Of a stretch of 64,000 nucleotides of DNA, positions 46,909-47,815 are shown one piece after another (position 1 is the stretch's first letter; every line of letters starts with the position of its first letter). A model generated the notes under the pieces. That model made no database searches, was not told the DNA's origin, and saw only the letters and a list, made by a program, of their open reading frames with translations. The DNA is taken from positions 124,001-188,000 of the forward strand of contig NZ_JQMJ01000003.1 of the NCBI RefSeq assembly GCF_000744655.1, read 5' to 3'. Made by a program: the position numbers and the translations under genes. The DNA comes from Streptacidiphilus rugosus AM-16 (GTDB taxonomy: Bacteria > Actinomycetota > Actinomycetes > Streptomycetales > Streptomycetaceae).

Positions 46909-47235
46909 ATGGCTCAGCGCGTTGTGGTCACGCTCTCCGACGATCTGGACGGAGGCGTCGCCGAGGAAACGGTTCAGTTCGGACTCGACGGAAAGTCGTA
47001 CGAGATCGACCTGTCCACCACCAATGCGGAAAAACTCCGCGCCGCGCTCGCGCCCTATGTGCAGGCAGGCCGCAAGCAGGGGCGTGGCGCAGCGGTGAAG
47101 GCGGCGCCCCGCCGCACCGAGATCGCCCCCGACCCGGCGACGGTCCGCGCCTGGGCGCAGTCCCGCGGCATCGACCTGCCGGCCCGCGGCCGTCTGCCGA
47201 AGCACGTCTACGAGGCCTTCGCCCAGGCGAGCTGA
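46909..47235 (+). CDS. Lsr2-family nucleoid-associated silencer
   Basis: The 108-residue protein has the N-terminal dimerisation sheet [16 protein letters not shown] ... [15 protein letters not shown] and a C-terminal AT-hook-like helix domain ([21 protein letters not shown], in part, containing the RGR that enters the minor groove). It bridges AT-rich DNA and silences horizontally acquired genes. Position near purS and the tRNA-Gly genes matches the second Lsr2 paralogue (LsrL) of Streptomyces. Its own leader is AT-rich, so self-binding is likely. Confidence 0.94.
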
Positions 47236-47387
47236 CCGGACGTGAGGGCCGGATTGGCTGTGACTTTTGCAGCAATTCGGACATACCGCCCCGCCGTGGT
47301 GATCACGGCCCGCGGGATGGGCTAATGTTCTTCTCAGCGGAACGCACCGCGGACAGACCGAAAGGCCTGCTCAGCGGGGCGGATCTC

Positions 47388-47459
47388 GCAGGTGTAGCTC
47401 AGTAGTAGAGCGTCCCTCTTCCAGAGGGAAGGCACAGTGTGCAATCCCTGTCACCTGCT
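47388..47459 (+). tRNA. tRNA-Gly (TCC) with atypical D and T loops
   Basis: Acceptor (GCAGGTG/CACCTGC), D stem (GCTC/GAGC) and anticodon stem (TCCCT/AGGGA) pair perfectly around loop CTTCCAG, anticodon TCC. The D loop AGTAGTA lacks the GG pair (G18-G19), and the T arm reads ACAGTGTGCAATCCCTGT with no TTC. The elbow contact of normal tRNAs and part of the EF-Tu surface are therefore missing. The neighbouring tRNA-Gly(GCC) genes have normal loops. No CCA is encoded. Confidence 0.85.
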
Positions 47460-47553: not shown

Positions 47554-47629
47554 GCGGACGTGGCTCAGTTGGTAGAGCATCACCTTGCCAAGGTGAGGGT
47601 CGCGAGTTCGAATCTCGTCGTCCGCTCCA
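47554..47629 (+). tRNA. tRNA-Gly (GCC), copy 1
   Basis: Acceptor GCGGACG/CGTCCGC, D loop AGTTGGTA, anticodon stem TCACC/GGTGA with loop TTGCCAA (anticodon GCC), T arm GCGAG TTCGAAT CTCGT, and an encoded CCA at the end. Confidence 0.96.
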
Positions 47630-47739: not shown

Positions 47740-47815
47740 GCGGACGTGGCTCAGTTGGTAGAGCATCACCTTGCCAAGGTGAGGGTCGCGAGTTCGAATC
47801 TCGTCGTCCGCTCCA
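47740..47815 (+). tRNA. tRNA-Gly (GCC), copy 2
   Basis: The sequence is identical to the copy at 47554-47629, including the encoded CCA. The two are separated by unrelated spacer and each has its own terminator, so they are independent transcription ends. Confidence 0.96.

Follow-up and report, generated by a model that had tools for sequence, protein, structure and literature searches.

A conserved tRNA-Gly(UCC) gene with an altered elbow and T arm in Streptomycetaceae, a candidate glycine donor outside translation

To our knowledge, it is chiefly in staphylococci that the division of Gly-tRNA between the ribosome and the cell wall has been elucidated. The non-proteinogenic tRNA-Gly species of Staphylococcus aureus are described as having altered D and T loops and as being used poorly by EF-Tu, and one of them is described as being charged and serving the cell wall (PMC4052509, PMC8007984, PMC9976931). 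The pairs A49-U65 and A51-U63 of these tRNAs are said to weaken the binding of EF-Tu (PMC4052509). Another described case is tRNA-Other of Bacillus cereus, a gene outside translation whose deletion is reported to have effects on the wall (PMC3399842). As described, it has a Trp anticodon, is poorly charged and adjoins a genomic island, whereas the tRNA analyzed here is a glycine tRNA located at one conserved site.

The window, by which we mean the whole 64-kb stretch of DNA that was analyzed, is part of a 9.0-Mb genome of Streptacidiphilus in which a search with the Rfam tRNA model (RF00005) yielded 74 matches. It contains an atypical glycine tRNA gene, below called the odd gene, and two other glycine tRNA genes.

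47388..47459, + strand: odd tRNA-Gly(UCC) gene of 72 bases, without an encoded CCA and with U73 as discriminator
47401..47407, + strand: its D loop AGTAGTA, with A18 at 47404 and G19 at 47405
47434..47451, + strand: its T arm of 18 nt, with the pairs A49-U65, C50-G64, A51-U63 and G52-C62, a bulged U at 47438, the pair G53-C61, and G55 at 47441
47554..47629, + strand: normal tRNA-Gly(GCC) gene
47740..47815, + strand: second normal tRNA-Gly(GCC) gene

The odd gene folds into a cloverleaf and scores 52.1 bits with RF00005 (cut-off 29); the score of each neighbouring GCC gene is 71.8 bits, these being the two normal genes named by an earlier reading made from the sequence only. The D loop and the T-arm motif GTGCAAT are present on the + strand as that reading quoted them. 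It had also reported the loss of G18-G19 and of the T-loop TTC, which is correct for G18 and for U55 but not for the other bases. Alignment to the normal TCC gene (D loop AATGGTA) showed that G18, replaced by A, is the only G lost from the D loop and that G19 is retained, and in the T loop U55 has become G while U54, C56 and A58 are retained. Since G18 pairs with Psi55 and G19 with C56 in the canonical elbow, as described in PMC7609411, exactly one elbow pair is altered in the odd tRNA, and in both partners. The elbow is thus dismantled only in part, because G19-C56 is retained.

The further claim of intact stems fails for the T arm, which has 18 nt rather than the normal 17 and contains the weak pair A51-U63. 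It is best read as ACAG/CTGT followed by a bulged U and G53-C61. A T loop of 8 nt containing a U-C mismatch was considered as an alternative to the bulge and is disfavoured, though not disproved. The bulge is preferred because in intermediate forms of the gene, described below, the same extra U precedes a loop of normal sequence, GTTCGAT or GTTCAAT, and because the extra base is shifted by one in genome G022. Beyond the two loops, the odd and the normal TCC gene differ at A51-U63, by the extra T-stem base and at the pair 32-38.

Scanning of the tRNA stretches around the 74 RF00005 matches with ARAGORN identified seven tRNA-Gly genes in the genome, namely two TCC genes (one odd, one normal), one CCC gene and four GCC genes. 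The sequence-only reading had suggested looking for another, normal TCC gene; one was found, and the odd gene is not the only TCC tRNA of this genome.

L038:295-365, own genome: normal tRNA-Gly(TCC) gene, with the second-best R1 score in the tRNA stretches after the odd gene

R1 is a covariance model built from 19 distinct odd-tRNA sequences, and it scores the odd gene at 100.7 bits versus 68.6 bits for the normal TCC gene. Seven further genomes carrying the odd gene were examined (G016, G031, G041, G047, G022, G087 and G028), and each of them has a normal TCC gene as well. The normal tRNA-Gly(UCC) of the same genomes is like the odd one in anticodon, acceptor end and all arm lengths except that of the T arm, but differs in having G18, U55, G or C at position 51, C32-A38 and a 17-nt T arm. 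Position 51 is G or C, and 32-38 is C-A, in 27/27 normal TCC genes, and U32-A38 is found in 13/13 normal CCC genes.

Some other tRNA matches in this genome were also unusual. A second unusual, tRNA-Gly(GCC)-like gene at L067:80-230 (G000:C4:5339529-5339679) has a U1-A72 end unlike that of the other GCC genes; it adjoins another low-scoring tRNA match and is perhaps of mobile-element origin. Tight runs of low-scoring matches at G000:C4:6170687-6171110 (five) and G000:C4:2123687-2123838 (two) resemble the tRNA clusters borne by phages and other elements. ARAGORN also called a tRNA-Asp with the anticodon ATC, which is not expected in bacteria.

The sequence-only reading had further proposed a comparison of TCC genes across Streptomycetaceae. 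Using an R1 match at E 1e-17 as the measure of presence, the odd form was identified in 132 of 200 genomes of the family. Counts per genus were made by hand, with misses assigned from genus labels. The gene was present in Streptacidiphilus (g1, 14/14), Embleya (g4, 4/4), Yinghuangia (g2, 3/3), the largest genus g9, inferred to be Streptomyces (63/63), g6 (34/35, the sole miss being a genome that is 71% complete), g16 (1/2) and the remaining nine genera (13/13). It was absent by R1 from all 63 genomes of g14, which we take to be Kitasatospora, and from the three of g11. Two or three tandem copies were found in five genomes (L112, L113, L114, L115 and L118). The choice of method matters, as a BLAST search with the 72-mer undercounts (126 of 200 genomes, the covariance model adding the Embleya copies among others) and ARAGORN overlooks 59 of 100 odd copies when run on the 200 bases surrounding each.

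In 394 genomes of the class, all R1 matches of at least 96 bits were within Streptomycetaceae (40 genomes) and the best outside the family had 75.7 bits, in a search that is blind to a strongly diverged or staphylococcal-type odd tRNA. Twenty of the R1 matches outside the family, from 12 genomes, were read; they represent 12 TCC genes and 8 CCC genes, and the loops of every one are normal. Matching records were also obtained from the phage (24) and plasmid (10) collections; among the matches listed (20 of the 24 phage and all 10 plasmid records) identities ranged from 75 to 86%, and none was 90% identical or more. Searches of an open-licence library revealed no paper whose title or abstract described such a tRNA in Streptomycetaceae.

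We analyzed sequence conservation in 100 copies collected with a text pattern in which G19, the anticodon and a portion of the D arm are set, whereas position 55 and the T arm are free; 99 of these copies close well. The elbow was found in two states, A18 with G55 in 93 copies and G18 with U55 in six, and never in a mixed one. The six intermediates are those of Embleya and Yinghuangia, which have the extra T-stem base and A51-U63 but normal loops. Embleya scabrispora is reported to diverge before the clade of Streptomyces, Kitasatospora and Streptacidiphilus (PMC6113628), which suggests that the T stem changed first and the elbow second. This is the likely order, and it stands for a single event rather than many.

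All 99 copies have A51-U63, G53-C61, U73, G1-C72/C2-G71, U8-A14, G15-C48, C56 and the anticodon TCC, the last being fixed by the pattern. The 32-38 pair is Watson-Crick throughout (C-G in 66 copies, U-A in 33). Position 49-65 is more variable, with G49-U65 in 85 copies and A49-U65 in 14, the window copy included. When the 19 distinct sequences were aligned, every one of the 399 cells was paired, and double changes were observed at seven pairs, including all five of the anticodon stem. The observed pairing and covariation score were reached in 0/500 shuffles each and the observed count of doubly changed pairs in 1/500, whereas the measure 'further pair types' was no higher than in the shuffles (500/500). 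Pairing of the T stem is beyond the reach of this test because that stem hardly varies. One copy (L105, genome G081) has 71 bases and an irregular anticodon stem, and is perhaps decaying.

The surroundings of the odd gene are also conserved.

46909..47235, + strand: Lsr2-like gene (PF11774, PF23359), the conserved upstream neighbour of the odd tRNA
47323..47328, + strand: promoter-like -10 hexamer TAATGT, 60 nt before the tRNA

In all 72 copies having 1000 nt of upstream sequence, the Lsr2-like gene precedes the odd gene on the same strand (tblastn), and a GCC gene lies downstream in all 71 copies having 600 nt of downstream sequence (ARAGORN). The neighbours are the same from Embleya to g9, so inheritance appears to be vertical. 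At 13/13 loci read in genomes without the gene, ten from g14 and three from g11, the loss is clean, with the Lsr2-like gene followed directly by the two GCC genes. The leader is conserved as judged by eye, and 88 of 100 copies carry TANNNT between -80 and -41, compared to a fraction of 0.186 in mononucleotide shuffles; a complete promoter was not detected in a sigma-70 scan.

In the non-proteinogenic staphylococcal tRNAs, U55 of the T loop is likewise replaced by G (GUGC), and a normal UCC gene occurs beside them. Both traits recur here, U55 being absent from the T loop of the window copy and from that of 93 of the 99 copies. Other features held in common with the S. aureus type are glycine, the UCC anticodon, the altered position 18 and T loop and, in the window copy, A49-U65 together with A51-U63, going by what PMC4052509 and PMC8007984 describe. 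The sequence-only reading had invoked this likeness, and it stands for these features but not for G19, which has not been replaced. The odd tRNA differs from the S. aureus type in keeping G19-C56, in its extra bulged U, in the G49-U65 pair of 85/99 copies and in serving, if it does, a bridge of one glycine rather than five. It is actinobacterial and its locus is common to the family, which argues for an origin separate from that of the staphylococcal tRNA; this origin and the retained G19 place it outside the staphylococcal set. The best reading, as far as the sequence tells, is that the odd tRNA is convergent with the wall tRNA of Staphylococcus. The Streptomyces setting assumed in the sequence-only reading needs adjusting, as the host itself is a Streptacidiphilus, although the genus inferred as Streptomyces has the gene as well.

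We propose, with a probability of about 0.5, that the odd tRNA is expressed, charged with glycine, kept off the ribosome and used to supply glycine for non-ribosomal transfer, most probably via FemX. Charging by GlyRS would be retained, since the UCC anticodon, C2-G71 and U73 are kept. Glycine requires a strong T stem for EF-Tu, and the combination of A51-U63, a bulged U and a disrupted 18-55 elbow pair would make EF-Tu bind the tRNA poorly, by analogy with the staphylococcal case. FemX may then accept the unprotected Gly-tRNA and would attach the one glycine of the bridge to the peptidoglycan precursors of streptomycetes. The role of FemX is suggested by the staphylococcal analogy, by the same two T-stem pairs, by the FemAB-family protein of this genome and by FemX of S. 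coelicolor, which is described as adding one bridge glycine (PMC4790382). That FemAB match is the only one in the genome (PF02388, E 1e-20) and its best PDB match is 6snr, a lipid II:glycine glycyltransferase, so that the host probably has a FemX-type enzyme, in agreement with the Fem-type enzyme that the sequence-only reading had named. FemAB was found in 198 of 200 genomes of the family, several of which have two or three matches.

The loss in Kitasatospora, the tandem copies in five genomes and the second, normal TCC genes were counted in favour of a donor role. Against it stands G49-U65 in 85/99 copies, which is a strong pair for EF-Tu. The odd tRNA and femX are unlinked, being about 284 kb apart in this genome. 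Strict co-occurrence of FemX and the odd tRNA was considered and fails, as FemAB is found without the odd tRNA in 62/63 genomes of g14 and 3/3 of g11; FemX thus does not need this tRNA. Wall chemistry fits as an explanation of the Kitasatospora loss but is a weak one, as it concerns a single event and the sources conflict: PMC8236941 gives Kitasatospora walls as containing LL- and meso-DAP, unlike those of Streptomyces and Streptacidiphilus, whereas PMC6113628 groups Streptacidiphilus with Kitasatospora, both with DL- and LL-A2pm.

The alternative that survives best, although we consider it unlikely, is a translation tRNA with a relaxed elbow, decoding GGA/GGG at low efficiency or in a particular growth phase, its unusual T arm being tolerated since the normal TCC gene carries the load. 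The strict covariation of the anticodon stem agrees with this, as do the invariant U8-A14, G15-C48, C56 and TCC anticodon, with the reservation that the search pattern prescribed the anticodon, G19 and some of the D arm. However, instead of scattered decay the copies show one common pair of loop changes or a single intermediate form, and the invariant A51-U63 is found in S. aureus tRNAs described as poorly used by EF-Tu (PMC4052509, PMC8007984). The Watson-Crick 32-38 pair of all odd copies also contrasts with the C32-A38 of normal TCC genes, but normal CCC genes have U32-A38.

A second possibility, on which we place somewhat less weight, is a glycine carrier that has two states or a remodelled T arm and that EF-Tu is unable to hold. 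The change of U55 to G would allow the variable loop and the T arm's 5' half to form the hairpin GCRC-AGU-GUGC.

47432..47442, + strand: possible alternative hairpin GCAC-AGU-GUGC, competing with the T arm (prediction only)

The four pairs of this hairpin are possible in 92/93 derived copies and in none of the six intermediates. Nearest-neighbour energies place the predicted hairpin ahead of the cloverleaf T arm for 36 of the 37 distinct derived sequences; the margin is 1.4 to 2.9 kcal/mol, except in G022, whose cloverleaf was scored with a mismatch and where it is 5.7 kcal/mol. In the four distinct intermediate sequences the hairpin is disfavoured. In nearly every odd copy, derived or intermediate, the cloverleaf T arm contributes only about 2 to 3 kcal/mol, versus 8.1 in the normal TCC gene. 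RNAalifold also picks the hairpin for the 19 sequences, with two of its four pairs each broken in two sequences. The hairpin is kept as a hypothesis, since the 3' strand CCTGT of the T stem is conserved, tertiary contacts are ignored in the calculation and independent changes are few. We know of no such remodelled T arm described for bacteria.

It is less probable again that the odd tRNA supplies glycine mainly to an aminoacyl-tRNA enzyme other than FemX, such as VanK, a Fem-like enzyme of an antibiotic cluster or a lipid aminoacyltransferase. The genomes with two or three FemAB matches are in line with this, as is the glycine-adding VanK described for S. coelicolor (PMC4790382), but presence in 63/63 genomes of the largest genus is too regular for patchy genes of secondary metabolism or resistance, and many genomes of that genus have a single FemAB match at E 1e-20. 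Still more doubtful is a tRNA-like RNA with a regulatory function, as a decoy, a T-box ligand or a source of fragments, for which charging is not required; the non-canonical elbow and the precedent of tRNA-Other described in PMC3399842 are consistent with such a role. The conservation of U73, the anticodon and G1-C72/C2-G71 in every well-closed copy argues against it. T-box regulation by the odd tRNA was sought in the host genome, and the sole match, which scores 57 bits against a cut-off of 93 bits, is a leader preceding an ileS-type frame that we take to be ileS. A decaying pseudogene is highly improbable, since the failure of ARAGORN on 59/100 copies and the irregular L105 are outweighed by the complete pairing, the double changes at seven pairs and the shuffle results (except for 'further pair types'), the conserved -10-like hexamer and the clean loss at all loci read.

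If the donor role is correct, Streptomyces and its kin, which are model organisms and a main source of antibiotics, would have an independent wall-tRNA solution. The family would also offer a natural series consisting of the normal gene, the intermediate of Embleya and Yinghuangia, the derived form and the clean loss in Kitasatospora, in a conserved tRNA that a common tRNA finder overlooks in many genomes.
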